A stretch of 64,000 bases of DNA from Cinnamomum chago (lineage: Eukaryota > Streptophyta > Magnoliopsida > Laurales > Lauraceae). Below, piece by piece: positions 28,201 to 62,975 of this stretch (position 1 is the stretch's first letter; each line of letters opens with the position of its first letter). The stretch lies in contig CP142460.1 of NCBI GenBank assembly GCA_038049695.1, positions 25,452,001-25,516,000 on the forward strand, written 5' to 3'. Below the pieces are notes generated by a model, which ran no database searches, was not told where the DNA came from, and saw only the letters and a list, made by a program, of their open reading frames with translations. The position numbers and the translations under genes were made by a program.

Positions 28201-31200
28201 TCTTCTAATGCCTCTGATGTATTATCCATCTCTAACTTCATTTTGTTATCATGCTTCTCAACGTTAGCGATTTATTTTTTCTTCTGTTTTGCTCACATTT
28301 TTTTCTTCTGGTTCTTTAATTGAAGGTGATGATGTAGACGAAAATGCCAAAGTAGCGTGTGGCAAGGGATTCTCCGTAGGTCACAACTGGATTCTCCATC
28401 CATTCCATTTAAAAGTGTATGTATTAGATGCATGGTAAATGATGACCTTAACGCATTGGAGCCAAGGCTAACCAAATAAGATGTGGGCGACATTCAATCC
28501 ATCCATTTAAAAGTGTATGTATTAGCTGCATAGTCAATGATGACCTTAACGCATTGGAGCCAAGGCTAACCAAATAAGATGTGGGCGACATTCATGGGAA
28601 TAACATCACACTTAACACTATCTTCGACTTTAACGCATTGGAGCCAAGGCTAACCAAATAAGATGTGGGCGACATTCATGGGAATAACATCACACTTAAC
28701 ACTATCTTCGACTTCTTCGTATGAGCCATGTTTACCACTATCTTCATATGATCCATGTTTTAAAGGAACAATGCATTGTCAGTTGACAGAAAAGAATAAT
28801 CATCTACCCACGCAACTCTATACGGCTTTGGGTGTTTCTCAATTGGCAATTGAAGTTTCTCAACTGCTTATTTGAATATGAATGTCATAGCATTACCCAT
28901 GGATGAAAATATCGGCCGCTACACATCGGCCGTAGCGGTGGTCACCGCCACGCTACGGCCAATTTATCGCTCGTCGCACCCATAGCGGCCGCTACGTGGC
29001 CGCTACAAGGTGAGAAAAAATCATGCTTTCCAAATTTTTTTATAATGTATAATAAGACTTATTTCTTTTAATCTTCTCTCCAAATAATATTTCTACACAA
29101 CTTTTCTACCATTTTATGTTTAAAAGAATACCAAAAAGCACATGATCTTGCCGAATTACAATTGGTACAGAGGGTTCTTCTCAAGGATTCTTCTCTAAGT
29201 ACATCCAATTAGACACCCCCTTTGGTAGATGTATTTTTTTCTCTAGGTATTCTTTGACTTCATGAGTCATGACATAGTTTTTTCTTCTATGAGCCTTTTA
29301 TTAGTTTCTAAGTTAGCATAACTAAGCAACATGAACACATGGGAAAAAAATATGATCATTACTATTATTTTCTACTTATATTATACAGCGATACAGGACC
29401 TCATCCAATTAGACGCCCCCTTATCTTAGTTATTTTTGCAAAAAAAAAAAAAAAATACATTTTCTCTCATTTTCCAATATTCTAGATTTTCTACAATTTT
29501 TTCATATTTTTTTGACGATTTTTTCAAATCGCACCGCTACGCCTGACGCTACCGCTAATTTCATCCTTGGCATTACCACCATCAATAATTACATTGCAAG
29601 CCTTCTCTTTACAACTTACTCTTGAGTCTTGTCCGAAAAATAGGGGCTTGATTCTCATTATCTTCCTCCGTGCCATCTGCGACTAAAAGGCATCGGTGAA
29701 GGATAAGTAATGGGCTTTCATCAACATTTGTAACCTTTAGTGGTAGCTTTGTCTCAGATTGTGGTATTATGTCAGGTTACTACATCTCTATGTGCTCATC
29801 ATATTGCTCAACTCGTCGTGCCTTGGAATAGATTTCATCAATATTGGCAAAGTCAGACATTATCATCTCACGCTTTGTATCTGACCGCAATTTTTCCCGA
29901 TAAAGGTTGACAGTGAGGCGATCTGTCTCATTAACCTTGCAATGAATACAAAGCTAATGGAATTTATCAGTGTATTCATCTATGTACATTGAACCTTGTT
30001 GAAAATTGATGAGCTCTCTTTGAAATGAGTCGAGATAATCTGATGGCGAATATTTGTCCTCCAATCTTTTCTTCATAACTTCCCATCGAGTGATAGGAGG
30101 TGACCCATATTTTCATTGTGATCATCAATATTTTTCCACCAAATTCTAACAGGACATTACAGCTTCATATTGACAAAACTCGTTGAGAATCTTCCATGTG
30201 GTACCAAGTGAAATAATCCTCAAGCAAAGTCGGTCAATCAAGGAAGGCTATAGAATCAAGTAGCCCGGACAAATTAGAAACCTCTAATTTGACTTTCATT
30301 AACGTTCCTTGACTGTGGTATATCATTAACGTTCCTCTCATTAAAGAGAAGTTGAAAGAACTCTTAGACCAATTCACAGGGACCAATATTCAACTGAAGT
30401 CCCTACTTTTGTGCAACGAAAGAGCCGAAAGACTCACGAACGATGGCTTCTAAAGCTTGTACCCGTAGCGCTAATTATTATCGGTGAGTCTACCGCAAAA
30501 AAAAATGGTTGTTAAGGTTTTTTTTTCATTCTTTTGTTGTTGGTATTTCGGGTCAAGTTCAAACCAGAACCTAATCTCAGGCCCAATAGGCAATTGATGG
30601 CTCAGCGCGTGTGCAACACATCAAGCCTCTTTCTTTTTCTTACGACTTGAACAATGTGCAGAGAAGATAATAAAAAAAGGGAGGGCTTCTTACTTGCTGA
30701 GTTGAACTTCAAAGGAAGAGGAGATTGAAGGGGTTTGTGAGACTTCTTCAAAGAGGGGGAACTATACTCTAGCATTCAATGAAGTGAGACGATGGACCTG
30801 CAGTGCATCGAAGACGCTGGTGATGTGGTCACGACCAAGCTCTGGCAGTGGACTCGACAGTGGAGCACGACGGAGAATCCAAAAGCAATAGCCCAATACA
30901 TTTGGTCATAAAAAGATGATAAGGGGAGAGGTTTGAAATAGGAAGCTTTGTTCAGAGGTCGTGTTCCCTGAGATTAGGAATATCCCCTCAAGGAATTGTG
31001 CTAATGAGGTCCAGGTCTAGCACTAACTCGTGAGGGCACCATGCAAAATCCATCAATGAAGTGAGACGATGGAGCTGCAGTGCCTCGAAGACGCTGTGAT
31101 GTGGTCATGACAAAGCTCTGGCAGTGGACTCAACAGTGGAGCGCGACAGAGAATTCAAAAGCAATAGCCCAATACATTTGGTCATAAAAAGAGGATAAGG

Positions 31201-31738
31201 GGAGAGGTTTGAAATAGGAAGCTCTGTTCAGAGGTCGTGTTCCCTGAGAATAGGAATATCCCCTCAAGGAATTGTGCTAATGAGGTCCAGGTCTAGCACT
31301 AACTCGTGAGGGCACCATGCAAAATCCATCAATGAAGTGAGATGATGGAGCTGCAGTGCCTCGAAGACGCTGGTGATGTAGTCACGACGAAGCTCTGGTA
31401 GTGGACTCGACAGTGGAGCGCGACGGAGAGTCCAAAAGCAATAGCCCAATACATTTGGTCATAAAAAGAGGATAAGGGGAGAGGTTTGAAATAGGAAGCT
31501 CTATTAAGAGGTCGTGTTCCTTGAGATTAGGAATATCCCCACAAGGAATTGTGCTAATGAGGTCTAGGTCTAGCACTAACTCGTGAGGGCACCATGCAAA
31601 ATCCAGCCATGGAATTTGTGTTTCTGCAAATGCCATGGAATCTGTTTAGGTATAGTTGAGTCAAGTCTAACTCCCGACTCGGATTATTATTATTATTATT
31701 ATTATTATAAGAAGAAGAAGAAGAGTGGAGCAGAGATT

Positions 31739-31771
<33 letters not shown>

Positions 31772-34700
31772 AAGGAGATATTGTAGGAGGGGAAATGGGA
31801 ACAAAAGGAATTATTAGTGTGAGTGCCTAAAAGTTAAGGACTCGGGTTAGGTCAGTGTGAGACTTGTGATTTGTTGTTTAAGCTTCTTTGGAGAAGATAG
31901 ATCGCCTTTGGACCTGAAAGGAAAGGAGAAATAGAGATCAAAGACCCTGGCTGCCGTCAGCCGAAGGCTCTCCAATGCCTGAGTTAGTGCTATCACTGAA
32001 CAAAGGATGGAGATGAGAGGCAAGTATGCCCTTATGCAAGGCGTTCTGTAACACGCTATGCAATGTGTAATAATGCATGTTCAAGTATCGCGTACCTGAG
32101 AAGGAATTGGTATCCCTCTATATGTAGAGGTTTCACCTGGCGCACCCTTAGTAGGGGTAGGTGGAGATACTGTCAGGTCGAATCAAGAGATGACTCCTGG
32201 TATTAATGTGGATGCGATTGATTAAGACGGCACCTGATCACTATCCGGCGCCTGTCTTGTCTGTCAGCACGTTTTGCAACGTAGTCGTAACTTCATGGAA
32301 GTACAATCATGGCCTAGTAGTCATCTATGTGGGCGGACCAAGCTGGAGATGGTACTAAGGCCAGATTCGGATGCATCCTGGCACTATTACCGAGGTGCCT
32401 TATACCGAGACCGAGATGAGCCCAGTCGGTACTCTTACCAAGGCTGACTCAACTTGGCCCTGGCTGACACTGTTTGCCGAGCTAAGATGAGATGTCTAGT
32501 TTGTACCGTTACCGAACTAAATGGATCTTGGCACTGTGGCCGAACTTGGATACCAAGATCGGGATAAGCTGAGCTGGTACTGCTACCGAGGCTAGTGTAA
32601 TCCTACTCTTAGGAAAATACCCCACACAATTGCCCCCTAGCTCGTGACCTCTTAGAGTTCTCAACTTTTTGAGGTCGAGAGCTGAGCATCATGTAGAGAG
32701 GATCTGAGGTATCAATTTTGAAATTCATCTCAGTGTTTGGCTGGTGACATCCGATCTTTATCATGAAGTATGTCTGCCTCTCCGAGACAATAAATATCAC
32801 GCCGGTGACACTTCGTCTACCCGAGGTGATAAATATTAGGTAGGTGACGCTTTCTCAGCTCGAGGCAATAAATAGCACGCTGATGTTTCGCCTTCCCAAG
32901 GCAATAAATGTAGCGTCTGAATCACTGTGCGAGATTAACTGGCAGTGCCACGTGTCTCCATCTGGTTGGTCGTTCAACGAAATTGAAGCGACGCATGCCT
33001 TTAGGAATTGGAACGGGCGCCATACCGTTTATAAATAGAGCTTTTCTTCCTTCGTCTCTTTCACTTTGGCATTTTATCAGAGAAAGTTCTGCTGCAAGAG
33101 AGAAGAGAACCCTGCCGGAGCTTTGCTGGAAGTTTGACTCAGCGAATCGGAGCCCGGAATCCGTTTCCTTTTCTGTGAGTTTTCTTCCATGTCCCTGTCT
33201 TTGCGCACCGCCTTTCTCTGTTTTTAAGGGTTTTGCTCTAGGGTTTAGGGTTTTTGTCTCTGCCCCTTTTCCGGTATCACCACCCGTAGGAGAATGGGAT
33301 CTTATAGGAGTTGGGTGGAGACCCCTGAGGCCATGGACTGCTTTAGGGAGATGTATGGGATCCTAGAGGACGTCCCAACGAAAATGGATGACCCGAAAGA
33401 TCTTTTCGAGGGTCGATCCTTCCGGGATGGCTGGATGTCATTTCCGCTAGTCTCAATAATAGAGGGAGGGGTTAGGTTCCACGTCCACCCTCTGCTTAGG
33501 GCCTGCTTGGCGACATGGCACCTCGGCCCATGCCAGCTGATGCCCAATGGCTTCAAAGTCATAATGGGCGTTGCTGAGCTCAATAAGATACTGGGCATAA
33601 ACCTCGGTGTCCATGACATCGAGGACGTATATGACCTATGTAAGACCGCCGGGGACGGTCACAGTTATTATCTCCGAGGGACGCCGAAGATGGAGCCCTT
33701 CGTCCATGATCTGGAGGGCTCAAACAAACACGCCGGGGACGATTGCCTGCTCGTCTCTGGCAACTGGGAGTTCGGCACGGACGAAACCGAGGCAGAGAAA
33801 TTGTACAGGATTCCTCGACACTTCGGGGTTCCTCTAAGTAATTACCGAGCTCAGAGTGTTGTTTCTTCCTTCTGTTGTCTTGCCGAGCTGATGTCATCTT
33901 CTGTCGTGCAGAGATCGGCCAGAGGAAGCTAGTAGCTAAGCGTGCCGGCTGGAAGCGGAACGACAGCTGGCTGAAACTCGTACGCGAGTATCAAGGCCAC
34001 AACAGGCGAGCTGCCTGGTCCCTGCTCGGATACGAGCCGAGGTACCACACGTACATCAAGAGGAAGGAGCTCGTGCCCGCCAGCTCGGAGGCTGTTGATT
34101 TGGCCCAGCTCGTTGAGAGCTACTCGTCTCCCTCCAATCGTGAAGAAAGGGGAGAGAAGATGGAGAAAAGGTGGCCTGTTGTGAAGATAAAAGACCTGGG
34201 GGCGAAACTTTTTGGAGGTCGAACTCCCTCTTCCTCAGCAGTCTCAAGGAGAGTCGAGGAGGTTGTAGAGGATTTTGCTGCTACTACTGGTGTTGCTGCT
34301 GGCGCTAGTGGTGTCGTTATTGTCAAGGATGAAAATAGCGGCGGGCAATACGTAGCGTAGCGGGGATACGTAGCGGCGTAGCGGAGCGATTTGAAAAAAT
34401 CGCCAAAAAAATCTGAAAAAATTCCAGAAAATCCAAAAAATTGTAAAATGAAAGAAAATGTATTTTTTTGCAAAAGTAAAAAATGTATTTTTTTTGCAAA
34501 AGTAACTAAGGTAAGGGGGCATAGCGGTCCCCTCACTGTATGAGGTCTTGTATCGCTGTATAAATAGAAAATAATAGTAATGATCATTTTTTTCACGTGT
34601 ATTCATATTGCTTAGTTATACTGACTTAGAAGCTAATGAAAGGCTTATAAAAGAAAAAACTATGTCATGAAGTCAAGACTTAAAAGTACCTAGAGAAAAA

Positions 34701-37700
34701 AATATATCTACCAAAGGGGGTGTCAAATAGGATGTACTTAGAGAAGAATCATTGAGAAGAACTCTCTATATCGACTGTAATTCGGCAAGATCATATGTTT
34801 TTTGATGTTCTTTTAAACATAAAAGGGTAGAAGAGTTGTGTAGAAATGTTATTTGGAGAGAAGAAAAGAAATAAGTCTTATTATGCATTTAAAAAAAAAT
34901 TGGAAAGTATGAATTTTTCTCACCCCGTAGCGGTCCCGTAGCAGACATAGCGGCCGCTACGGCCGATATATCGCGTAGTGGCCGCTATTTTCATCCATGG
35001 CTATTGCCACCGGCACTGCTGCTAGAACTACTGTTGCTGGTGTTGGTGCTGCTCGGCATCATTCCGCCGAGATCCCTAGAGAGGGAGGCCGAGCTGAAAA
35101 GAGGCCGCGGTTTGAGGGTCGCGGCTCGGCAGCAGCCTGCTGAAGGGGCTAAAGAGAAGGCCCTGAGGGAGAAGAGGCACCGGGGCAAGGGCTCATCAGA
35201 GAAAGGCCATGGGCAAGCCTTGGTCCCTCAGCTTGCGGGGGCGACTCTATGGAGGCCAAGCCTTCAGCTCGGGCCTAGGAGGCCCATGACGGTGGAAGAC
35301 CGTCTAACCAGCAGTCCGTCGGTCGTTGCCGCCCTTGCCAACGCGTGCGCCCTGCCACTCGACATGCAGAGGCACAAGGGAGCGGACGACGTGACATTGT
35401 TGTCTGCATCTCTACAGTCGATCTTCTCGATAAGTGTCCGATGCAGATCTTCGAGTAGTATTAGTTTCTGTTAACTTTCCTCTGACACTTGTTTTCTTTC
35501 TCAGACTGCGCAGAGGGTTCAGGTGGTCCTGGAGAGGGCCCGTGAAAGTGGCTCCAAGGTCGAGAAGCTAGAAGAAGAGAGGAAGAGACTCGCTGCGACC
35601 TTGGAGGGGAGTAGCCGGGAGCTAAAGGCGGCGGAGGAGAAAATAAGCAGCCAGGAGGCAGAGAGGGATTTTGCACTCCAAGAGCTTAGTAATGTGAAGG
35701 TTGAGACCCACGAGCTGAGAGGTGTAGTCGCGGTCAAGGAAAAGAAGATTCTCGCACTTGAGGCCGAGCTGGTAAAGCGGGATGCCCAGCTCGAAATGGA
35801 GCACAAGGAGAAAGCCGCTCTCAAAGCCTCGCTCCAAGCTGAAATCGAGACATGTTTCCAGGACGGGGTGGATGCGGCTACAAAAGCATATGAGGCCCAA
35901 GTCGAGAACATCAACTCGACGCTGTTCGAGCTCAGGTGCCGAGTTGCGCTGAAAAAGGCAGGTATCCCAGATGATCATCCTGTCTACCAGAACCTGCCAA
36001 AGTTCACTCGTCCCGAGCCTAAGTCGAGTTCTGCCCCCACTACAGAAGTTGCTGCGGAAGCTGTTCCAACTCCGCCTGAGGATGCTCCCCAAGCCACCAA
36101 GACTGAGCCTTTTGACATCAACGTCGAGGCTACTGAATCCTGAAGTTTTTGTATTTTTGTTTTTTCTATGTAAAGAACTGACTCTGTAATGATTCTTTCA
36201 TAAATGAAGAGAATTTTTACATCCATACTTGCCCTCTTTTCTTCTGATAACAATGTGTGCTCTTGACTTTCGTTCCATAACTAGGCTCTTAGCACGAACG
36301 CCCGGTTTTTTGACCAAGTAGTTAAGTCCGGTTCAGTAACCGGAACTGAGTGACTATTGGGTGAGAATAACTTTGGTTCCTTAACCAGAAATAACTTAGG
36401 CTAGTCGAACTCGGTTCAACAACTAGAATTCTAATTACGCTGAAGTTTAAATAACTTTAAGAAGTACCTGCACCTTTATGGTAGGAAACTCTTAGTTGGT
36501 TCCGCAACCGAACTAGAATAGCCGCCGAGTTCCAAAACTTGGCATGTTCCAAAACTAGAATAGTAACCAGGTTGGCTGGTTCTGTAACCGAGTCGAGATT
36601 TTGGCCGAGTTCCATAACTACGACACTTTGCAGCTGATTCTGTAACCAAGTTGCGGTCTCTTCTGCGCTGGTGGTGCTATCACCGAGCTGAGACCTTTTC
36701 CGAGTTCCATAACTGCAGCGCTTTGCAGCTAGTTATGTAACCGATCTGTGGTCTCTTCCATGCTGGTGCTGTCACCGAGATTTTGGCAGAGTTCCATAAC
36801 TGCGGCGCTTTGCAGCTGGTTCTGTAACCGAGTTGTAGTCTCTTTCGTGCTGGTGCTGTCACCGAGCTGAGACTTTTGCCGAGTTTCATAACCGCGGCAC
36901 TTTGCAGCTGGTTCTGTAACCGAGTTGTAGTTTCTTTTGTGCTGGTGCTGTCACCGAGCTAAGACTTTTGCTGAGTTTCATAACTGCGGCACTTTGCAGC
37001 TAATTCTGTAACCGAGCTGTAGTCTCTTCTGTGCTGGTGCTGTCACCGAGCTGAGACTTTTGTCGAGTTCCATAACTGCGGCGCTTTGCAGCTGGTTCTG
37101 TGACCGAGTCGTGGTCTCTTTCATGCTGGCGTTGTCACCGAGCTGAGACCATTGCGGAGTTCCATAACTGCGGCGAGGGAACAGAGTTGTTGTAAGTGAA
37201 GTTGTCCGGGTCATGGCTGGTGCTATCACCGAGGTCATTGCCGGGACTGTATAAGTCGAGGTTGGTGTTGCCACCGAGGCCCGACGTTGAAGCTGTGAAG
37301 ACTGGAACTATCCGAGCTGTGGCTGGTGCTATCACCGAGGCCGTTGCTGGAGCTATCAACTGAAGTAGCTGAGTTGTGGTCAGTGTCGTCACCGAGGTCG
37401 CAGCTGAAACTCCTGTTGGGTTGTGCTTTTATCCGAGTCGTGGTTGGTGATATTGCCGGGACCGCTGCTGGAGCTGTCGCGATTGGAACTGTTCAAGCTG
37501 TGGCTAGTGCTATCTCCGAACCGGGACTTGAGGATGAAGATTACATGGCTAGTCAAGGAACTGTTTCTGAGATTGCCATTTCTTTTCTAGGGGGAGGGTC
37601 CCACCAGAGGTTGAAACTCTTGTGAGCTCGAGCTCGAGCTTCGTCCCAGTTCGCCCTGTCGACCAGTGCTTTCACAGTGACTATGGGGAACCGGACGAGG

Positions 37701-40537
37701 TCCCTTTGAAGCTTTGATGCCTGGCAGCGGAGCTTGTTCGAAAGATGCGAGGGTCGCGGCTGCAGGCCCTGGTATCAGCAAGGGACAGATCTTCATCATT
37801 ATCGCTGTTGCGATCCACCTGGTGGAGGAATCGACGAGACCCGGCTACTGCTGGAACTTTTGCTCCGCGGGGGAGTCTCCAGCAAAGCAGCACTCTGTTG
37901 GAGGTGCTCCGGTGGAGGAGCGCTTTGTTGGGGAGGTGCTGTCACCGCCTCTGCTGATGAACCTGTCTAAGTTACAGGTCATCCCGCGCCTGTTGCGTTA
38001 GACTTTCCATGGATCTGTTTCGACAGGGGGTTGTCGATGATGGTGGCCAGGCTTTGCAGATCCTTTGCCGCTGCTAGAGGCATGGCTTTGTCGATCTTTT
38101 CCCACAGACGGCGCCAATTGTGAGTGCCTAAAAGTTAAGGACTCAAGTTAGTGTGAGACTTATGATTTGTTGTTTAAACTTCTTTGGGGAAGATAGATCG
38201 CCTTTGGACCTGAAAGGAAAGGACAAATAGAGATCAGAGACCCTGACTGTTGTCGGCCGAAGGCTCTCCGATGCCTGAGTTAGTGCTATCACTGAACAAA
38301 GGATGGAGATGAGAGGCAAGTATGCCCTTATGCAAGGCGTTCTGTAACGCGCTATGCAATGTGTAATAATGCATGTTCAGGCATCGCATACCTAAGAAGG
38401 GATTAGTATCCCTCTATATGTAAAGGTTTCACCTGGCACACCCTTAGTGGGGGTAGGTGGAGATACTGTCAAGTCGAATCAAGAGATGACCCCTGATATT
38501 AATGTGGATGCGATTGATCAAGACGACACATGATCACTATCCGGCACCTGTCTTGTCTGTCAGCACGTTTTGCAACGTAGCCATAACTTCATGGAAGTAC
38601 AATCATGGCCTAGTAGTCATCTATGTGGGCGGACCAAGCTGAAGATGGTACTGAGGCCAGATTCGGATGCATCCTGGCACTATTGTCGATGTGCCTTATA
38701 CCAAGACCGAGATGAGCCCAGTCGGTACTCTTACCAAGGCTGGCTCAAGCTTGGCGCTGGTTGGCACTGTTTGCCGAGCTGAGATGAAATGTCTAGTTGG
38801 TACCGTTACCGAACCAGATGGATCTTGGCACTGTGGCTGCACTTGGATACCGAGATCGGGATAAGCTGAGCCGGTACTGCTACTGAGGCTAGCATAATCC
38901 TACTCTTAAGAAAATACCCCACACAATTAGGATTGGGGGTTTTGATGGATGTGGATTTGGAGTTTTGATGAGGTGCAGATTTTGGGGTTTTAAAACGGAT
39001 TTGGGACAAGAAGAAAAAGAAGAGGGAGAATGAAAAAGAAACATAATAATAAGAAGCAGCAGCTCCCCCAAGTCTGGTAAAACCTGACTCAATCACGGCC
39101 AAGTCCCAGTCGACTCAAGCTCAACAGAAATTTAAACACTGCATAAGACCCAAAGAGGTCTAGGATTTTTTCTTTATTTATTACTTAATGAATTGTCAGT
39201 AGGATTAGTTTCCTAGTTTGTTCACTACTCTTTGATTTTAGGGTTTGTTTTCCTATATATATGAGCATTGTTGAACATTAGAATCACCTTTGAAGGCTAA
39301 TAAAATTTTCCTTTGTGCACCGAGTTTTCCCTTTTAGGTTTGTTACTCTTCACGAGAGTCTCTTGGAATCATATTTTCCATACTTCGGCACTTTGCAAAC
39401 ATTAATCCAAAACCTTCCTGCAGGTCGCATCAGTTTCACAATCACCACATAAAGCAAGCTCATCCACAGAGACACATAACAGCTATTGGCATGCCAGTAG
39501 GCCCCCACTGAAGTCTGAAACCAATTGGAAGTCTACAAGGCTTCAAAGTACTTCTTGCATATGCAATTAACACTTCCCAGACAGTAGCACTCAGGACCTT
39601 TAATTAATGAACCTCCATTGGCAGACTATTCTACATTCATAACTTCAGAAAGATCAATCAAGATTAGAGCATTCTTGTGCGCATTCCACAATTTTGTTTG
39701 CAGGTTGGTTTCATTTTCCAGGTTAACTGAAAAGTTAAGGATTCATTCTTGCAGTTTTACTTTCCCGGTTTTGATGTGGCAAAACAATTCTGCCACTTGT
39801 GTGAGATACAAAGTAAATGGTTATCTATCTCTTGGGTCCAAATCTGGTTTCTGGAGAAATCATGCGAAATTTCATTACTTCCGATAATGAAACCACAGAA
39901 AATGTCAACCTCAAGCAACAGAGGAAACCATTTTTATTTCTACGGAAAAGATGCAGCATGAGCATACCCTTAGGGCTTGTTAGTGTAACACCGCAAAACT
40001 GAAGCCCAAAGGGGGAGGGTCAGACATTGATTTCCTTTCTTGGTATAGAAAAATCCCAGAAAAGCAGGAATTTTAGAACCCACCGAAACCACACTTCCCT
40101 TAAGTGGAAATTAAATTGCACAAACATGCCCATAAAGTTGACAGTGCACTCCGTAAAAAGTCATGCAAAGAAATTCATGGCAGTCTACTACAATGTTTCA
40201 ATGGCATTCTATTTCCACAATGATTTCATTCTCTGAGGAAAATAAAAATCTGAAGACATCCTTTAATATAGTTTCAGTCTCTACTGTTTCGCGCACAGAA
40301 ACATTTTCCCGCAGTGACATGTATTTCTATAAAGAAATCATAAAATGGTTTTTTGAATCAATTCCCCATAAAAATGCTTATCTCTCAGAATATAAACTAG
40401 ATAATTAGTTACCCTGGAAAAACCATTCTCCTTCAAAAACCATTTTCACTTTCACAGAAAATTCTAGTCAAATGTACACGCATACCCATTAAACACATCC
40501 ACAAATGAAGTTCAGCTCAGATAGATACACAAATAAA

Positions 40538-40592
<55 letters not shown>

Positions 40593-41156
40593 GGAGACCT
40601 TTCGAAGATGGCAGCTCTTTTCCATCTTTTTGATAGAATTCTCTAATCGACACCAACGTCTTCCCTCTAAACTCCTGAATCGTGACCCTTCTCTTCTTCG
40701 TTAGCTGCGGCGAAAACCCAAACACATCAAGGGCATAAAAAAATACCCCAACACAGGAAAATGTATAATAACCAGCATCATCTCATCTCAAACAGAAGGA
40801 ATCAAAACAAAATTAGGGTGGTTCGGTATTCTGTAAACTGGTCTCACCCTGCAAATGATAAGATCTCCATTGTCGTCATACTCTCTGTCACCTTTCTTTT
40901 TGGAATCGTCATCTTCTTCTTCCTGTTCTTCTTCTTCTTGAGCCTCCTCCTCATTGGGCGTCTCATCCTTTCTGGAAAGGAGAAAGGACTCGACTACACC
41001 TCGGACGAATTTCTTGTATTGGGGGAGTGAGAGATCGATGTCGAGCTTCTCTGAGGCCATGTTTCGGACCTTGAATTCCGTCATCTCTTCCATGTTTGAG
41101 CTTTTCAAGATCTCCACCACAGTCTCCTCGATTTTGGTTTGGGTTTCAGGATCCAT
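25120..41156 (-). CDS. KELP: Transcriptional coactivator KELP (DEK_C + PC4 domains), three exons
   Basis: Coding exons on the minus strand are 41156-40848, 40704-40599 and 25214-25120, with GT-AG introns of 143 bp and 15,384 bp. They join into a 169-aa protein close to the size of plant KELP (about 165 aa). Residues 1-60 form a DEK_C-like helical domain (IEETVVEILKSSNMEEMTEF, SLPQYKKFVRGVVESFLL). Residues 68-90 are an acidic linker (EEEEQEEEDDDSKKK). Residues 95-169 are the PC4 single-stranded-DNA-binding fold (RVTIQEFRGKTLVSIREFYQ, KELPSSKGISLTTDQWAAFK, VPAIEAAIKKL). PC4-type coactivators act in the nucleus in Pol II transcription. All key parts are present with no stop, so the gene looks functional despite the large transposon-filled second intron. 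The gene converges on GMI1. Confidence 0.93.
25215..26673. other. KELP intron 2, 3' part without recognisable elements
   Basis: Ordinary AT-rich intronic sequence. The 85-codon open frame at 25431 is uncharacterised and has no domain signature. An A-run lies at about 26433-26446. Confidence 0.4.
26674..27028 (+). mobile_element. GTAGCGG-type hAT MITE, copy B (355 bp)
   Basis: A perfect 8-bp target duplication GAGTGGAG flanks it (26666-26673 and 27029-27036). The ends are CATGGTTCAAAATAGC and, reversed, CAAGAATCAAAATAGCGG. The interior matches copy A (AAAACCTAGTAGAGCCAAG, CCTATTTCTTCTCCTCA), and the subterminal regions are rich in GCGGCCGC-like and GTAGCGG motifs. Confidence 0.92.
27071..27534 (-). 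repeat. Probable 3' LTR of a decayed Gypsy element
   Basis: In minus sense the block starts TGTAGTGCAAACC and ends CCAATAAACA (TG...CA, 464 bp). It contains an R-like stretch TTGTAATTTATGCTTATTAT and is preceded by a purine-leaning tract (AACTTGGGAGAGTTGG), as expected for a polypurine tract. The orientation agrees with the gag/protease pieces at 28.4-30.3 kb. A matching 5' LTR was not found. Confidence 0.5.
28449..28690. repeat. Three tandem copies of a protease-region segment
   Basis: TAACGCATTGGAGCCAAGGC followed by TAACCAAATAAGATGTGGGC starts at 28449, 28547 and 28631 (offsets 98 and 84). Copies two and three also share the stretch CATGGGAATAACATCACAC. The copies are nearly identical, so the expansion is recent compared with the decay of the surrounding element. 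Confidence 0.85.
28898..29569 (+). mobile_element. GTAGCGG-type hAT MITE, copy C (672 bp)
   Basis: A perfect 8-bp target duplication GCATTACC (28890-28897 and 29570-29577) flanks it. The ends are CATGGATGAAAATATCGG and, reversed, CAAGGATGAAATTAGCGG. The left subterminal region is packed with CGGCCGCTAC, GTAGCGG and CGCTACGG motifs. The middle (GTATAATAAGACTTATTTCT) matches copy D in inverted orientation. No open frame of note. Confidence 0.93.
30777..31610. repeat. 276-bp tandem repeat, three copies
   Basis: Units start with CAATGAAGTGAGA at 30777, 31054 and 31330 (offsets 277 and 276). Each includes GCAGTG(C/G)(A/C)TCGAAGACGCT, AGCAATAGCCCAATACATTT and GTGAGGGCACCATGCAAAAT. The copies are about 95 percent alike by eye. 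The minus-strand open frames at 31264-31636 merely read through the units. Confidence 0.9.
31683..31768. repeat. Compound microsatellite (TTA)n, (AAG)n, (GA)n
   Basis: A run of TTA/TAT triplets (31683-31709) passes into AAG triplets (31710-31725) and, after 17 bases, a pure (GA)n/(AG)n tract (31742-31768). It ends 50 bp before the LTR element at 31818. Confidence 0.95.
31818..32628 (-). repeat. 3' LTR (left) of the LARD-like element
   Basis: This 811-bp LTR reads TGTGTGGGG...CACTCACA in the minus sense. It contains internal degenerate repeats around ACCGAG and GGTACT. Its copies in the window are 38119-38925, the solo LTR at 59437 and a diverged version at 62976. Confidence 0.92.
32782..32905. 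repeat. 39-bp minisatellite upstream of the antisense gene
   Basis: CCGAGG(C/T)AATAAATA-type phrases recur at 32782, 32821, 32861 and 32897 (spacing 37-40 bp) with GGTGACGCTTCGTCT-like intervals. The same array with the same 39-bp spacing occurs in the related element at the right edge (63836, 63875, 63914). Confidence 0.8.
32945..33293 (+). promoter_or_regulatory. Pol II-type promoter and leader of the antisense gene
   Basis: A G-box-like GCCACGTGTC lies at about 32946-32955 and a TATA box TATAAATA at 33030-33037. About 255 bp of pyrimidine-rich leader follow, up to the ATG at 33294. The arrangement and spacing are those of an ordinary plant promoter. The equivalent block is conserved in the right-edge element (CACCATGTGTC, TTGGTCGTCCAA at 63957-63990). 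Confidence 0.65.
33294..36143 (+). CDS. Spliced 'putative gypsy type transposon' (Transposase_28-like) gene, antisense within the LTR element
   Basis: Exon 1 runs 33294-33837 and encodes VRFHVHPLLRACLATWHLGP, CQLMPNGFKVIMGVAEL and AEKLYRIPRHFGVPL, the conserved block of the plant family annotated as putative gypsy-type transposon (PF04195-like). A 74-nt GT-AG intron (33838-33911) joins in frame to IGQRKLVAKRAGWKRNDSWL. This exon is interrupted by MITE copy D (34324-34999). Beyond it, 35000-35440 encodes WRPSLQLGPRRPMTVEDRL and SLQS, with a frame change near 35140. After an acceptor at 35504 the last exon (35505-36143) is a long coiled coil (LERARESGSKVEKLEEERKR ... AELVKRDAQLEMEHKEKAAL) with a Pro/acidic tail and stop TGA. 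Biochemical function is unknown. The MITE and frame change suggest this copy is damaged. Confidence 0.72.
34324..34999 (-). mobile_element. GTAGCGG-type hAT MITE, copy D (676 bp)
   Basis: The ends are CAAGGATGAAAATAGCGG (left) and, reversed, CATGGATGAAAATAGCGG (right), so it is inverted relative to copies A-C. The target duplication is GTTATTGT (34316-34323) / GCTATTGC (35000-35007), 8 bp with two changes. Both ends carry TAGCGG arrays and the middle is the reverse complement of copy C. It sits inside a coding exon of the antisense gene; insert plus duplication is 684 bp, a multiple of three. Confidence 0.9.
36590..37190. repeat. 92-bp tandem repeat, about seven copies
   Basis: TT(C/T)CATAAC occurs at 36610, 36705, 36792, 36884, 36976, 37068 and 37160, mostly 92 bp apart. 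Each unit carries GCGGC(G/A)CTTTGCAGCTGG, TGTAACCGAG and GCTGGTGCTGTCACCGAGCT. Because 92 is not a multiple of three, no continuous protein is encoded. Between 37200 and 37530 similar but more degenerate repeats (GGCTGGTGCTATCACCGAGG) continue. Confidence 0.92.
38119..38925 (-). repeat. 5' LTR (right) of the LARD-like element, with adjacent primer binding site
   Basis: This 807-bp partner of 31818-32628 has the same termini. The minus strand immediately inside it (38118 downward) reads ATTGGCGCCGTCTGTGGGAA. Beyond that a degenerate short frame MPLAAAKDLQSLATIID may be the remains of a gag start. Confidence 0.92.
38931..40540. other. KELP intron 2, 5' part: possible old LTR fragment, no gene
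   Basis: At 39160-39360 the sequence (TTTATTTATTACTTAATGAA, TTTTCCTATATATATGAGCA, then an AATAAAATTTTC) looks like the U3-R part of an LTR with TATA and polyadenylation signals, on the plus strand, but no ends were found. The rest has short uninformative open frames. Confidence 0.4.
40540..40590. repeat. (TA)n(CA)n microsatellite next to the KELP exon 2 donor
   Basis: About 36 bases of TA repeat run into about 16 bases of CA repeat, ending at 40589. In KELP sense the intron begins GTCTCCCTCT and goes straight into (TG)n(TA)n within 10 bases of the 5' splice site. Confidence 0.97.
40599..41156 (-). CDS. KELP: KELP exons 1 and 2
   Basis: Exon 1 (41156-40848) starts at the ATG of MDPETQTKIEE and ends ...DLIICR with donor GTGAGACC. 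Exon 2 (40704-40599) starts at LTKKRRVTIQEF after acceptor CGCCGCAG and ends in phase 1 at SSK/G with donor GTCTCCC. Upstream of the ATG is a CT/GA-rich leader, and no in-frame upstream ATG is nearby. Confidence 0.95.
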
Positions 41157-41345
41157 TTTTTCAAAAACGAAAGACTCAGACAAACACGAGAGAGAGAATT
41201 GTATAATTCTGCGGGGAATTTTATCGAACAGGTATTGGTGAATAGGAAAAGTGCGGAGACGCACGTGCGCGATAGCTTTGACACTGCATTTTACCCTCTA
41301 CACGCGGTCAGATAAGGTAGATGAAGAAGTGGGACGTGTCACTTG
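41157..41345 (-). promoter_or_regulatory. KELP: KELP leader and proximal promoter with G-box-type sites
   Basis: Upstream of the ATG at 41156 (minus sense) there is a CT/GA-rich stretch (41185-41200) suited to a 5' UTR. A palindromic G-box GCACGTGC lies at 41261-41268, and a GACGTGTC (ABRE/G-box-like) at 41333-41340. No convincing TATA box was seen. The role of the sites is inferred only from their core sequence. Confidence 0.4.
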
Positions 41346-47601: not shown

Positions 47602-48652
47602 GGGATTTTTACGTAAAAATTAATTTTAAATCTTAATTCAATGGTTTTATGAAGAAAAATCATAAAATGACAAGGGAGTTGTTCGTACATTTTTTATGAC
47701 AAAACTACCCCAATTGACGATATCATCAACTTACATTGCAAAAAACTATGTGTTGCTTTATCTTTCTCTATCTAGTGATGGAAAGTTTGTGAAAACTATT
47801 GCATTTTGTGTCCCGGATGTCTTATTTAGGTGTGTGGATCCCATGCTTGATTTTCGCTCATTTCTCGCCCCTTATTAAAGTGTATTCTTATGACTTTGGA
47901 GGGTGTAAATTTGGAGTACAAGGTGTTCGATGAAATGCCGAAATGAGGATTTTCTCTCTATTTAGTCGGTGGCTTTGAGTGAGGTTAAAGTGGATGGATT
48001 TGGGTATTCTCATATCTATTTGTATTTTTCAAGAGAGTTCTGTGCTCACAAAGCATACCCAAATCCATCTCCTCCAACCTCACTCAAAGCCACTAACTAA
48101 ATCGAGAGAAAATCCTCATTTCGAAATTTCATTGAACACCTGTACTCAAATTCACACCCTCAAAAGTCATGAGAATACACTTTAACAAGGGGTGAGAAAT
48201 GAGACCCAAATCCATCTCCTCTAACCTCACTCAAAGCCACTAACTAAATCAAGAGAAAATCCTCATTTCGGCATTTCATCAAATACCTTGTACTCCAAAT
48301 TCACACCCTAAAAAGTCATGAGAATACACTTTAATAAGGGGTGAGAAATGAGTGGAAATCAAGCATGGGATATCCACACACCTAAGGAAGATTGCCAAGA
48401 CCACCTAAATAAGACAACCGAGACACAAAATGCAATAGTTTTCACAAAATTTCCATCACTAGATAGAGAAAGATTAAGCAACACAGTTTTTTGCAATGGA
48501 AGTTGACAATATCGTCAACTGGGTTGATGATATCGTCAACTGGGGTAGTTTTGTTACAAAAAAGTGTGCAAACAACTCTCTTATCATTTTATGATTTTTC
48601 TTCATAAAACCGTTGAATTAAGATTTAAAATTAATTTTTTCGTGAAAATCCC
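47602..48652. mobile_element. Mutator-type foldback element with long TIRs
   Basis: The ends are GGGATTTTTACG and CGTGAAAATCCC, flanked by a perfect 9-bp duplication TTAAAATTT (47593-47601 and 48653-48661), the size typical of Mutator-like elements. The left arm (47602 to about 48030) is the reverse complement of the right arm. The right arm also contains an internal duplication (about 48050-48200 and 48205-48352, starting ACCCAAATCCATCTCCTC). The 60-68-codon open frames are arm sequence. It sits within the hAT element. Confidence 0.88.
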
Positions 48653-49214: not shown

Positions 49215-52200
49215 GTCAGGTCCCGACTCAGGTTTAGTATATTTTATTACTATTTTAACTGTGATTAGTCTCTAAGTGGGAGTAGAGGACGATTAGCTTA
49301 GATTTTTAGTTAGATAGAATTTTGAATAGTTTTGGGGAATTTTGAGCGCGTTGAGTCTGATCTGACCGGGCCCGGGGTGGCTTGTGTCACACGTGTTAGC
49401 ACGGGAATTTGATTTATTTGATTTTGAAAAACATTGATTTTGATATTTTTGAATTTTTTATTTCGATCCCGACAACTTTCATGTTCGCTCCATTTGCATT
49501 TGAAACCCAGAAATCGCGGTTTTCGATAAAAAGGGGCAAATTCGTCTTTTTACACTAAATCTGTGCATAAATTTCGAAATTTGTAAACCATGAGGAAAAT
49601 ATACTTTTTGAAAACTAAATTCTTCGACGATCATTTTTCTCTACTTCGTTGACTTCATTTGGGACCCACAAAAGGGAGTTTTAAAGCCTCAAAGCATTAA
49701 GACTATTGGGACCCGCACTACCCATTTAAAAGTCAAACCCATGATGGGTTCTTCATCTTCTTCACCCTTCATTTGTTTCTTGCAGCAGCTGAAACCAGAG
49801 AGTTTTCTCTCTTTCTTCTCAACCTCTTTTTCTTCTTGCATGTCTAGGAAGCTCAACCCAAATTGAAATTCTGACCCCGACCATGCATCATCTTCCTCAT
49901 GCAATGAGCAACCCAAAGACTCGATTTGTGCAAAATTCCTGCTGAAACCAACTTCATTTCTTATGCTTTTGTCGCTGGTTTTTTTTACACCTACAGTTAA
50001 GGTTTGTTTCTCCTTTTAGAGATGGGTTTTTCACACCCTTTGGAAGCTTTTTTTCTTGCATGCAAAGAAGCTCTTTGAGAGCTCCTTCTCCTTTCAAAAT
50101 ATTGAGTTTTTGAATGGGTTTTTCCCATGGGTTTTGGTGTAGGTTTGCAGCTGATTGTGTAGAGATTTTGGATGGTTGTAGTGACCCATTTTGTCTCAAG
50201 CAAGTGAATAATCAGGTCTCTTGATGCAAGTCATAAGGAAATTGATTTTCTGTTAAAGTGTGGTTTGAAAATGCTATTCAATTCATTAACTATTTTGAGC
50301 TATGGAAGTTGTGGTTTCAGGATGATTTTCTTATGTTTAGACTACTCTCAACTCTCTGCATATTCTGTTTTAATAGCATGGCATTACAATTTTTTTCTAT
50401 GGTTCAAACTGATGTGGAAAACTCAGTTGTTGATTTCTGCATTTACCTTTGTTAAACACTGACTTTGGTTCATGTTTATGGGAAACGAATGTGATTGAGA
50501 GATTGTTGGTGATTAAAGGGAGTTTGATGGAAGTTAAATGGAAGCGATTGACATTCAGTTTAGTGTCAAAAGGGAAGTGAATAAAGTTGTAAGAAGGAAG
50601 GAAGAGGGAAAAGATTCAAAGGAATGGGTGCAGATTCAATCGGACAGGGCAGAAGCCATGGCCGCTTGAGCGGACCAAGCTCTGCCTGGTAGTAGGGCAG
50701 GCCAGAGAGCTGGCCACTCGAGCGACCCAGTTATTGGATGGGCTCTGCTCGAGCGGACCCATTACCGCCCTGCCCAGGCCTATTTTTTGGGCCATTTCCT
50801 AGGTTGTTTTCAAGCCCATTTCAGGCCCTTTTTCCAGCCCATTTCCCCCATTATTTGAAGCCCATTTAACCCCTATTGGTGCATAGGGGTCTGGAATGAA
50901 TACATTGGATCGAATTATTTTGAATCGTGAAATTTAAATGGAAAAAGTGATGGATTTGCTTGATGTTAGAATTACCTAGGAATTTATTTAAGTCTTAATA
51001 TACATACACTTTATATCCTTAATTGTTGGAGATCTTCATTGGCACCAAGGTCCTCATATATTATCGACATTAGGAGCCTAAGTGTATATCGAGACGACCC
51101 GTGGTAAGCCATTGGACCATTATACACTAATTCATTCCAAGTGATAAAACTTATTTTTTTTTCTTTTGTAAATTGATTTGAAATGGATTGAATGATTCTC
51201 CACGTTTGAAAATATCAATAAGACTACTCATTTGATTTGTTCGCTATTGTTCGATTGTTATTATTCAAGAGTAGTCATTTTTATCGATGAAAATGTATTG
51301 AAATGATTTGATATATTGATTTAAATTTTGAAATGCACCACTAAGCTTAGGTTACCTTGTTGGGCTGATCACCTGGCTTGGGATCTTTAAATTATCTGCC
51401 AAGTGCAGTTTGAACTCTGTCTGCTCTGGCCATGGCAACGGTTCTGTATTCTGGTCCCACGGGTACTGGCAACGGTTTCTGTTTGTCTGTTCCGACCATC
51501 TCATATGGCCACGGTTATTTGTTTGTGTGCTCTTGTTACTTCGGTAATAGGATAATATAGTTAAATGTGGTTTGCCAATATTTTTTTTATGTGTCAGTTA
51601 GTCCGAAATACTTAAATCATGAAATTCTTTTATTTGCACATAAATGGTTCATTTGATTTATTCCTTATATATGTTTCGTTTTAACTGCATTTTTATGACT
51701 CTAAACATGATATTTATAAAACTTGCATATCTTATCTGTTTTATTCACCTGTCAGACCGTCGTGTCTGATACTTTTTGTTTGGTGTCAGATGTCGGACCC
51801 GCAGCCTTTGAGGCGGAGCGCGCGGAGGAGGCAATAGGGCCTCCAGTGGAGCACAGATGGCAACCAAATGATGTCATGTAGACGTCATGTTGGGTCTGGA
51901 GTTTGATAACATCTTTTGGGGAATGACTTTTATTTTGGGAACTTTGTTTTTGGCCTCTGTTGGCCTTGTTGGGTTGTATAACTTTAATATACTTTTGTGA
52001 TCCTCACAACTCGAATTAACCTTGGGTTATGCTCTTGTATATATTTCTCTTTTGATATAAAGCTTGTGTTGTTATCTTATGTTTCAATTTGTTTTTATTT
52101 TTCTACATGCTTCCGCACATTACTATTTGTTGTCTATTGATTGATTGGTTGTGATGGATCGTCTGGAATCCTCACCGCAGAATCCTGTGGGAAAATAATT

Positions 52201-52289
52201 AGCGCGTGCGGGAGGAATTTTCAGACCCGTCGCGCCGCGTCCCCCGGATTAAGGACTTGATTATCAGGGCCTCAGTCCTAGGTCGAGAC
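49215..52289 (+). repeat. 5' LTR of the Gypsy element (~3.07 kb)
   Basis: It starts TGTCAGGTCCCGACTCAGG. Open frames in it (49.7-50.2 kb, 50.26-50.46 kb) are conserved in the right LTR only because the LTRs are copies, and they carry no known domain. A short acidic tail (DVGPAAFEAERAEEAIGPPV ... WQPNDVM stop) lies at 51789-51881 after an intron-like TTTGGTGTCAG acceptor. The LTR is unusually long but within the Tekay/Del range. Confidence 0.9.
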
Positions 52290-52386
52290 TTGGTATCAGA
52301 GCGAGAAATATGTCGGGCAATTAAAAGACATTAGAAACATAGGGACGTGGAGAGGATCCGTTAGAATTCTCATTAGTTAGTATCGC

Positions 52387-53516
52387 ATGAGGGATTGTGG
52401 ATGCATTTTCCTTGATGTAATTTATTGTACTAACAAATGGTTTTGCAGCAAAGTTCCTCCACGCAGGGACCACTCAAACACAAATCCTTCTTCCAGCAAT
52501 GCTCATACTGCAGGCTCCTCTGAAGATAATCAATTTCAAAACTTTATGCAAATGATGATTGAACAGCAACAGAAAACAAATGAGATGATCATGGAACAAC
52601 AAAGAAAAGCCAATGAGAATCAAGCCAAATTGGAGGAGCAGATGGCCAGGAAAGATGAGGAATTAACACAAGTGAAGAGGCAGTCGTTGGAAGTGTTGGG
52701 CAGGAGACTAGAACATGTACAACCTCAACACATGGGTCCTCATATTGTTATCAATAACCGTGACGACAACTCGACTACATTATTCGAACGCTTCCAAACA
52801 AGAGGTCCAAAAGAATTCACCGAAAATGAGGATCCTTTGACAGCATATGACTGGTTAGTCCATCCAAAGAATATCTTCGACCTTTTCAGTGCACAGGCAG
52901 ACAGCGAGTTCTTCTAGCAGCCTCTATGTTTATCGGCTTGGCTGACATTTAGTGGAAAACACTCAAGGAAAGCTATTAGGACATTGCTAATGATATCGCT
53001 TGAGCTACTTTCAAGAAACAGTTCACTAAGAAGTATGTACCCGCTCATATCAAGAGACAGATGGCGGTGGATTCCAGCTACTCACACAAGGAGACATGAC
53101 AGTCCTCGAATATGTTACAAAGTTTGAGAGACTGTCTCAGTATGCACCAGAGCTCGTCAATACCGAGGAGGAAAAGATTATCAAATTCCTTGCGGGACGT
53201 AACCCTATTATTGAAAGAGATGCTTTAGGTGTTGTCCTACCAGCCACATTCCAAGAGGCAGTCAAGCGAGCTTATAAATTTGAAAACATCAATAACAAGA
53301 ATATTAAGGATGCCCAGAGGAAACGTCAGCAGCAAGGACAAAAATCCTATCAAGGCAAAAGGTCAAGGCCAAATCAAAACACTGAAAAGACAAGGTGGAT
53401 GTGAACATTGTGGCAAAAACCATCCTTCCCACCTATGTTACAGAGTCACTGGTGGATGCTTTAAGTGTGGCCTTACAGATCATTTGATGAAAGATTGTCT
53501 AAACAATAGGAACTAG
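52387..53516 (+). pseudogene. Gypsy gag with zinc knuckle
   Basis: The first frame (to 52917) has a Gln/Lys-rich helical start (IEQQQKTNEMIMEQQRKANE) and the capsid start FQTRGPKEFTENEDPLTAYDWL, ending at a stop. A second piece (53096-53404, MTVLEYVTKFERLSQYAPEL, GRNPIIERDALGVVLPATFQ) is the capsid C-terminal half, and a shifted frame gives CEHCGKNHPSHLCYRVTGGC FKCG...HLMKDC-type knuckles by 53516. Stops and shifts show it is inactive. Confidence 0.85.
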
Positions 53517-53699
53517 GGCAACATGCCACCTGAGCAGAACCAACAAGCAGCTCAGAACCAACCCAAGCAGCCACAACAACAGAACCAGCAACAACAGCCC
53601 CGCCAACAACCTTAGAATCAGCACGCTCGTCCACCTCAACAGAACAGGAATGTGCAACAAAGGAGACAGAACTAGAATAAAAACAGACCTTAACAACAA

Positions 53700-54110
53700 G
53701 GACGCATGTATCATCTGAATCAAGCGGGCGTGGATGCAGCGGGCAATGTAGTTGAAGGTATACTTTTTGTCTGTGGAATAGAAGCTAAAGTATTGTTTGA
53801 TCTTGGATCCACACATTCATTTCTATCTCCCATGTTTGCTAAGTTGATTGATGTGCCTGTTTGCGAACTAGACTTTATTCTAACTGTTACAACACCAGTA
53901 GGAAAACAAGTCGTGTGTACTATATTTTACCCTAGTTGTACAGTTGAGATAGGTGATGTCACATTCCCAGCAGACCTTATCCTACTAAACATGCATGACT
54001 TCGATGTCATTTTGGGGATGGATTAGTTGTTTGGACACCATGCTAGTATGGATTGTTTTAACAAAACTATTTCCTTCAAATTGGATGGAGCATCATCAGA
54101 GGTGGAATTT
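53700..54110 (+). pseudogene. Gypsy protease
   Basis: The frame reads GILFVCGIEAKVLFDLGSTH SFLS, then PVGKQVVCTIFYPSCTVEIG and LILLNMHDFDVILGMD followed by a TAG where W is usual. The active-site D-S-G reads D-L-G here. The Q-rich linker upstream (53517-53700) contains several stops. Confidence 0.85.
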
Positions 54111-54159
54111 CAGGGAGAGAAGGGTTTCATAGGCTGGTGTTATTTTAGCATTATCAGCA

Positions 54160-54757
54160 GTTAAACTATTGAGAAGTGGATGCGAGGGATTCATAGCATT
54201 TATTACAAAGGACAAACAGTCCCAAGGGGTGGAGCAAATCCCCATAGTGTGCGAATTTTTAGATGTATTTTCTAAAGAAATTTCAGGTTTACTGTCAGTC
54301 AGGGAAGTGGAATTTACCATAGAGCTTATGCCAGGAGCAGGTCCAATTTCCATCGCACCGTATAGAATGGCTCCGACAGAATTGGGTGAATTAAAACTTC
54401 AGTTACAATAGTTGGTGGAAAAATGTTTTATCAGACCAAGATATCACCGTGGGGAGCTCCGGTGTTGTTTGTCAAGAAGAAAGATGGAAGCTTGAGAATG
54501 TGCATAGATTACAGAAGATTGAACCAAGTGACCATAAAAAATAAATATCTGTTGCCAAGAATAGACGAGTTATTTGATCAATTGCAGGGAGAAGAGTATT
54601 TCTCGAAGATAGACTTGAGGTCCGGATATTATCAGCTGAGGGTAAGAGGGTCGGATGTACCGAAGACCGCCTTCCGGACAAGATACGGGCACTATGAATT
54701 TTTAGTAATGCCCTTTGGACTGGCGAACGCACCAGCTGTGTATACTCGTCTTTTTAC
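54160..54757 (+). pseudogene. Gypsy reverse transcriptase, N-terminal part only
   Basis: VCEFLDVFSKEISGLL, VEFTIELMPGAGPISIAPYR and, after a stop and frame change near 54411, [56 protein letters not shown] and ANAPAV are present. The sequence breaks off just before the region that would carry the YxDD active site, at the deletion junction near 54757. Confidence 0.9.
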
Positions 54758-59436: not shown

Positions 59437-60246
59437 TGTGTGGGGTGTTTTCCTAAGGGTAGGATTATGCTAATCTTGGTAACAGTACTGATTTAGTTTA
59501 TCTCGATCTCGGTGTCTAAGTTCGGCAATAATGCCAAGACATATCTAGCTCGGTAATAATACCACCTAGGCATCTCATTCCAGCTCGGCAACAGTGCCAG
59601 CTAGCACCAAGCTTGAACTAGCCTCGGTAAGAGTACTGGCTATGCTCACCTCGGTCTCGGTATAAGGCACATCAGCAATAGTGCCAGGTGCGTCCAAATC
59701 TGATCTCAATATCATCTTCAGCTCGGTATGTCCACAGAGATGAGTACTAGACTATGATTGTACTTCCATAAAGTTACAGCTACGTTACAGAACGTGCTGA
59801 CAAACAAGATGAGCGCTGGATAATGATCAGGTGTCGTCTTTATCAATCACATCCACATTGATACAAGAGGTCATCTCTTGATTCGACCAGACAATATCTC
59901 CACCTACCCCCACTAAGGGAGTGCCAGGTAAAACCTATATATATACAGGGAATACAAATCCCTCCAGAGGTCCGCCCAACACAACGCAATATCACGCATT
60001 ATGCAACGCGTTACAGAACGCCATGCAATGCTAGCATACTTGCCTCTCTTCTCCATCATTTGTTCAGTGATAGCACTAACTCATGCATCAGAGAGCTTTC
60101 GGCTGACGGTAGCCAGGGTCTTTGATCTCTTTTCCTCCTTCCCTTTCAGGTTCTAAGGCGATCAATCTTCCCCAAAGAAGCTTAAATAACATTACTATGA
60201 GTTTTACACTCACCTAATCTAAGTCCATAATTTTTAGGCACTCACA
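59437..60246 (+). repeat. Solo LTR of the LARD-like family
   Basis: This 810-bp block reads TGTGTGGGG...GGCACTCACA and is the reverse complement of the LTRs at 31818 and 38119. A perfect 5-bp duplication GTATG flanks it (59432-59436 and 60247-60251), with no internal element sequence. It is what LTR-LTR recombination leaves. Confidence 0.93.
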
Positions 60247-62593: not shown

Positions 62594-62975
62594 CTGTTGG
62601 GTGGGTTTTGGTACATGAATCTGCCTTTTACTAATAGAAGAGGACTAATTATCAACTATAACATCCATCTTGTAAGCTATAGATTGGAGTTTTCAAGTCT
62701 TACATGATTCACTTTCATTGAACAATCCTAGCCATTTGTTTGAATGTTAAAATATGGAATGGTTGGACAGATTTTCAAGGCCCAGTTAAGATTCTAGATT
62801 GTCCATCTCAATCCTCAAGCTGCATTTGAGGTGAACCTATCCATTAGATCAATGGTAAGACATTTTATTTCAATTTGGATGTAGAACCTCTAAAGCCCCT
62901 CCAACTTGCCACTGACCTAAAGATTACAATCCTTGAATCTGGTACTAACTTTGGATGTTGAAAATGAGTAGAGAT

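Follow-up and report, generated by a model that had tools for sequence, protein, structure and literature searches.

According to a recent survey (Vicient 2025, PMC11963269), 97% of the recently active clusters of Retand retrotransposons carry an antisense open reading frame (ORF) of the TRP28 type (PF04195), which sits between pol and the 3′ long terminal repeat (LTR) and is found in Retand elements of both eudicots and monocots. The survey, which identified its elements through reverse transcriptase (RT), also describes tandem repeats in about half of them and some clusters without part of gag-pol, and TRP28 is predicted there to bind DNA. In maize Grande, the antisense gene23 has its own promoter, is transcribed and gives a nuclear product (PMC7264820). 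The role of the Retand antisense gene is stated as unknown in both texts. Here we describe an LTR element at positions 31818..38925 of a 64,000-nucleotide stretch of the Cinnamomum chago genome (contig CP142460.1, positions 25,452,001 to 25,516,000; hereafter, the window), in which a gene runs antisense to an element that has no gag-pol. Sequence comparison suggests that this element is probably a non-autonomous derivative of Retand-type (Ty3/gypsy, Tat) elements that retains the antisense accessory gene of the lineage. Related elements are already known to carry this type of gene; what is unusual is that it has survived without gag-pol.

The ends of the element were read directly in the sequence and lie where the original prediction had placed them. 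The left LTR (31818..32628, 811 bp; the 3′ LTR in element sense) and the right LTR (38119..38925, 807 bp; the 5′ LTR) are both on the minus strand, have TG...CA termini and are flanked by the target site duplication ATTAG (31813..31817 on the left, 38926..38930 on the right). A TGGCGCC-type primer-binding-site (PBS) stretch stands beside the right LTR (38099..38116, minus), and a short stretch resembling a polypurine tract (PPT) adjoins the 3′ LTR (32629..32643, minus). With LTRs, duplication, PBS and PPT and no gag-pol, the element has the features of a non-autonomous LTR retrotransposon. The two LTRs are 92.6% identical; their 809 aligned sites include 48 transitions and 6 transversions, which gives a Kimura two-parameter distance of 0.071, and the partial LTR pairs of copies L039 and L040 gave 0.076 and 0.092. 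The substitution rate of grasses is 1.3e-8 per site per year; at this rate the divergence corresponds to about 2.7 million years, or more if this plant evolves slowly. The window element is an old, decayed copy. Elsewhere in the window, a solo LTR of the same family (59437-60246, minus), 80.7% identical to the LTRs of the element, has GTATG on both flanks, and a 277-bp unit in three tandem copies (30757-31609) lies immediately to the left of the insertion site. A search against Rfam returned no match in 31000-40000.

The orientation of the element was confirmed by a diverged, pol-bearing relative, which begins at 62974-64000 of the window and continues in loci L045 and L046. Since its pol pieces are on the minus strand and a gene homologous to ours is on the plus strand, the minus sense predicted from the PBS and PPT holds; the same PBS stretch occurs beside the relative's LTR in L046 and a similar PPT-like stretch in L045/L046, and no reversal of the assignment appeared. 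A first Pfam scan of the minus-strand ORFs of the relative found nothing; other pieces later matched RVT_1 (63.9 and 32.2 bits), RVT_3 (28.6) and Integrase_H2C2 (38.6) above the Pfam cut-off, and rve (27.8 bits), RT_RNaseH_2 and RVP_2 below it; for the gag-side piece, Pfam returned no gag domain. The relative itself is disrupted by stops, and an insert of about 5 kb lies within its right LTR. Its plus-strand gene is homologous to that of the element in all exons (exon 1 is 61% identical), with introns at the same places; between the two families dN was 0.24 and dS 1.45, the latter near saturation. Among 10 further copies of the relative's type, drawn from 40 places, 7 carried integrase beside the gene. 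The leader side of the element's internal region (37176..38098, minus) shares short stretches with the relative's gag side, which fits the expectation after an internal deletion.

We then asked how far the absence of gag-pol extends through the family, searching 1.06 Gb of the genome in 14 contigs. Candidate places numbered 2186 for the gene, 560 for the leader and 3182 for the LTR, of which 40 each were scored, the unscored ones being unconfirmed as copies; the gene type of the relative gave 1850. Twenty gene copies, a subset of the more than 50 known, were followed downstream: 15 continued into the family repeat or leader, 5 matched nothing and none had pol. Starting from 30 leader loci (the window locus counted), the sequence continued as tandem repeat or gene in 24. 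The pol and gag pieces of the relative matched neither the element at 31818-38925 nor any of 45 partly overlapping loci, which bears out the prediction of a gag-pol-less element. The leader loci without the repeat (L041-L044 and L047) were considered as possible gag-pol carriers and rejected, as they had no pol match; in L041 and L047 the repeat and gene appear further along, and L042-L044 resemble other inserts. The only match of the relative's pol and gag pieces in the window, at 54456-54758, lies in a different element: this RT-like stretch stands between direct repeats that resemble LTRs (49597-57465; about 2.7 kb, 92-97% identical in blocks). As part of the explanation that we hold to be probable, the element would be one old copy of a large, high-copy family of non-autonomous elements.

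The antisense gene had been described as a single substantial frame with a G-box, a TATA box, an ATG and one spliced intron. These signals are located as claimed: the G-box CCACGTGTC at 32948..32956 (plus; identical in 5 of 10 copies of the family), the putative TATA box TATAAATA at 33030..33037 (plus), the ATG at 33294 and a 74-nt GT-AG intron. The gene model itself had to be revised, as the predicted gene has three exons, all on the plus strand, and is interrupted here by an insert. Exon 1 (33294..33837) resembles TRP28/PF04195 and is followed by intron 1 (33838..33911), which recurs in related copies, with GT in all 11 aligned rows and AG at the same place in 10 of them. Exon 2 (33912..35429) precedes intron 2 (35430..35504, 75 nt). 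Of 9 other copies, 8 have a canonical donor at this intron and the ninth is unreadable there; the donor of the window copy is non-canonical. Exon 3 (35505..36143) ends in the stop and encodes a coiled-coil-like C-terminal part. Both the PF04195-like region and the C-terminal coiled coil of the original prediction returned matches of the expected kind, all of them below the Pfam cut-off. TATAAATA was the sole 8-mer among 390 upstream to be kept in 9 of 9 other aligned copies, and it is also present in the relative; one row (L039) is non-homologous upstream of about 33000, so that only 8-mers downstream of that point had a full chance of being kept. The recurrence of frame, introns and putative TATA box in related copies is beyond chance. 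Exon 1 is open without indels in 14 of 51 copies, including that of the window; a structure predicted for exon 1 by itself was uninformative (mean pLDDT 36.4).

The gene is broken in the window copy by the insert in exon 2, with its in-frame stop, and by the non-canonical second donor. The insert (34325..34999, 675 bp) resembles a miniature inverted-repeat transposable element (MITE), has terminal inverted repeats and brings the in-frame stop at its start. It was absent from all 8 copies compared and is flanked by an imperfect 9-bp duplication (34316-34324 and 35000-35008, 7 of 9 positions alike); the terminal inverted repeats and this duplication suggest a Mutator-like insert. A related MITE-like insert, about 83% identical and in the opposite orientation, is present at 28890-29543.

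Next, we examined whether the gene has been under selection. Private variants should mostly reflect decay after insertion, and widely shared variants should have passed through replicating elements. Within four mutation classes (CpG, CHG, remaining transitions, transversions), variants private to one copy were compared with those present in at least 6 copies. Earlier tests that mixed the mutation classes (p=4e-4 and 3e-10) were inflated because singletons are largely transversions, and were replaced by the stratified ones. In exon 1, across 51 copies, private variants were richer in amino-acid changes than shared ones (odds ratio (OR) 3.2, p=2.9e-4), and the other two plus frames showed p=0.13 and 0.66. 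The signal came chiefly from transitions outside CpG and CHG (52:15 versus 5:12); the CpG class alone showed no significant difference (p=0.16), and the transversions showed none. Exon 1 thus bears signs of purifying selection across the 51 copies.

Between the stop of the gene and the leader, the element carries 11 inverted-repeat sites with the core GTTCNNTAAC (36272..37168, plus) and a tandem repeat with a 92-bp unit in 6.6 copies (36575..37175). The window contains 19 occurrences of GTTCNNTAAC versus 1.9 expected, of which 18 belong to this element, the solo LTR of its family or the LTR of the neighbour. In L045 there are 8 versus 0.23 expected, five of which lie directly downstream of the gene (L045:3566-3863); as the motif was picked after viewing both families, this enrichment is no independent evidence. 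Among the ten additional copies of the relative's type, which belong to the same family as L045, 8 carried sites, 29 in total, whereas motifs with shuffled letters gave 0.18 on average and none of 300 reached this count. The 4-base arms flanking the core were complementary more often than after shuffling, both in the relative-type copies (0.75 versus 0.45; 33 sites, 0 of 2000 shuffles, and the same with 15 distinct sites) and in the window (0.45 versus 0.32; 11 sites, p=0.017). By these comparisons, the GTTCNNTAAC sites are inverted repeats with varied but matching arms. We hypothesize that the array is a candidate site for a two-fold DNA-binding protein or for an RNA hairpin. Counts of G-U pairs did not discriminate between DNA dyad and RNA hairpin, and the sense strand folds better than its shuffles (z -3.37 with 20 shuffles, -3.95 with 100). 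Across 224 units, the motif (0.945) was not significantly better conserved than the remainder of the 92-bp unit (0.897; p=0.10), some places being counted twice via overlapping loci and L001, L009, L012, L045, L046 and L048-L087 being excluded.

Our model suggests that an internal deletion removed gag-pol from a Retand-type element and left the LTRs, PBS, PPT, part of the leader, the tandem-repeat region and the antisense gene. The sense RNA would start in the LTR and would be copied and integrated in trans by the proteins of a pol-bearing element. The accessory gene would be transcribed in the opposite direction, starting at a TATA promoter of its own within the 3′ internal region. Since both introns are in antisense in the genomic RNA, reverse transcription could leave them in place. 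The protein may act as a nuclear regulator that aids its own kind, perhaps via the inverted-repeat array downstream of its gene. Expression, mobilisation in trans and the nuclear regulatory role are what we infer here from sequence.

Several results weigh against this model. On the minus strand, the frame whose third positions coincide with those of exon 1 gave the same selection signal as the gene (OR 3.06, p=5.8e-4), the remaining two minus frames being flat (p=0.15 and 0.54). The plus-strand gene is the likely cause, because this minus frame is full of stops (271 in the 51 copies, versus 51 in the gene frame). The purifying selection proposed for the antisense frame was recovered in exon 1 but not in exons 2 and 3, which had no signal in 10-11 copies; the test on the whole gene was weak (p=0.037), with frame +1 reaching p=0.046 in the opposite direction, and 40 of the 51 exon-1 copies had been picked by similarity to the window copy. 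The PF04195 match of exon 1 scores 16.1 bits, and that of the relative's gene 18.2, against a Pfam cut-off of 26.2. The relative is of putative Retand type, its RT pieces matching RVT_1. Finally, no close pair of family LTRs and RT, as expected of a partner with the same LTRs, was seen by eye among the scored places (40 of 3182 for the LTR, 150 of 13207 for the RT).

The absence of constraint in exons 2 and 3 within the family is also what one would expect if the antisense gene were a relic, carried along with the 3′ region when gag-pol was deleted, its exon-1 signal dating from pol-bearing ancestors. In the same direction, all copies are decayed, and 37 of the 51 lack an indel-free open exon 1. 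However, the variants poor in amino-acid changes are precisely those common to at least 6 gag-pol-less copies, and the putative TATA box is the best-kept upstream 8-mer. As the shared variants are amino-acid-poor and no sampled gene copy has pol, the shared changes probably post-date the loss; this dating would be less secure if gag-pol had been lost several times independently, from varied pol-bearing ancestors. We regard a relic as unlikely, while giving it real weight. The own promoter and antisense position also suit another idea, raised in PMC7264820, in which the transcript and not the protein matters, pairing with the sense RNA and feeding small-RNA silencing or regulation. The codon-register signal in exon 1, the recurring introns and the amino-acid conservation in the relative argue for a protein instead, and make this alternative quite improbable.

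The original prediction had also raised the possibility that the gene is a passenger. A recently captured host gene would account for introns and a promoter in a gene lying antisense to the element. It would hardly explain why a diverged element with pol has this gene too, its introns identically placed, nor the 2186 and 1850 candidate places of the two gene types; moreover, the gene type is reported as characteristic of Retand, in eudicots and monocots alike (PMC11963269). We therefore give a captured host gene almost no credence, and the preferred explanation remains a Retand derivative that kept the accessory gene of its lineage.

How does the family compare with the systems described so far? 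It shares with Retand, as portrayed in PMC11963269, the antisense gene in the 3′ internal region, the TRP28-like exon 1, whose position and strand fit, the LTR size range and tandem repeats, which here would lie between the inferred former place of pol and the 3′ LTR. It differs from Retand in having no gag-pol in sense orientation (found as pieces in the relative), in its internal region of about 5.5 kb versus 7.4-12.9 kb, and in having introns in a gene whose PF04195 match is below cut-off. We call the element a derivative and not a member of Retand because it has no gag-pol. With Grande gene23 it shares an antisense accessory gene with its own promoter; Grande, in contrast, has pol, and nuclear localisation and transcription are reported for gene23. 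The words "intron" and "purifying" are absent from the main texts of PMC11963269 and PMC7264820, and among titles and abstract openings, with the subscription literature mostly uncovered, we found no title on a gag-pol-less Retand family with the antisense gene.

Among non-autonomous elements, large retrotransposon derivatives (LARDs) and elements of the Dasheng/RIRE2 type are LTR elements without gag-pol, presumably mobilised in trans, and LARDs are defined by a non-coding internal region. Unlike these, the present family retains a gene with a selection signal, and its interior is not non-coding, given the open exon-1 copies, that of the window included. Only by analogy does it recall the VANC proteins of VANDAL transposons (PMC5735166), where an accessory transposon protein goes with short motifs that are often tandemly repeated within the element. 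A VANC-like anti-silencing system would call for a protein that binds this repeated motif and lowers methylation; the motif array alone is observed here, and VANDAL is a DNA transposon with a different protein.

The window holds further features outside the element. At 4891-10256, direct repeats of 275 bp, 99% identical and 5.1 kb apart, surround minus-strand ORFs of 726, 200 and 173 amino acids, the last without a Pfam match; by eye this is a young, Copia-like element. A plus-strand ORF at 12432-12944 contains RVT_3 (RNase H-like, 54.4 bits), a minus-strand ORF at 40788-41297 with a DEK_C domain (48.2 bits) is part of a host gene, and an inverted repeat at 47830-48379 has 176-nt arms, 89% complementary and 198 nt apart.

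A family without gag-pol that has kept the antisense gene separates the role of this gene from gag-pol. The gene apparently benefits an element that supplies no replication proteins itself, and the array beside it in two diverged families offers a concrete candidate binding target. By analogy with VANC, the protein could be a sequence-specific regulator, an activator or anti-silencer, recognising the GTTCNNTAAC array, a proposal that we make with strong reservations. If it is true, protein and array would form a self-activating module, which a gag-pol-less element would retain for the sake of its own continued transcription, and the retrotransposon would have been reduced to its ends and this module, with reverse transcription borrowed from others.

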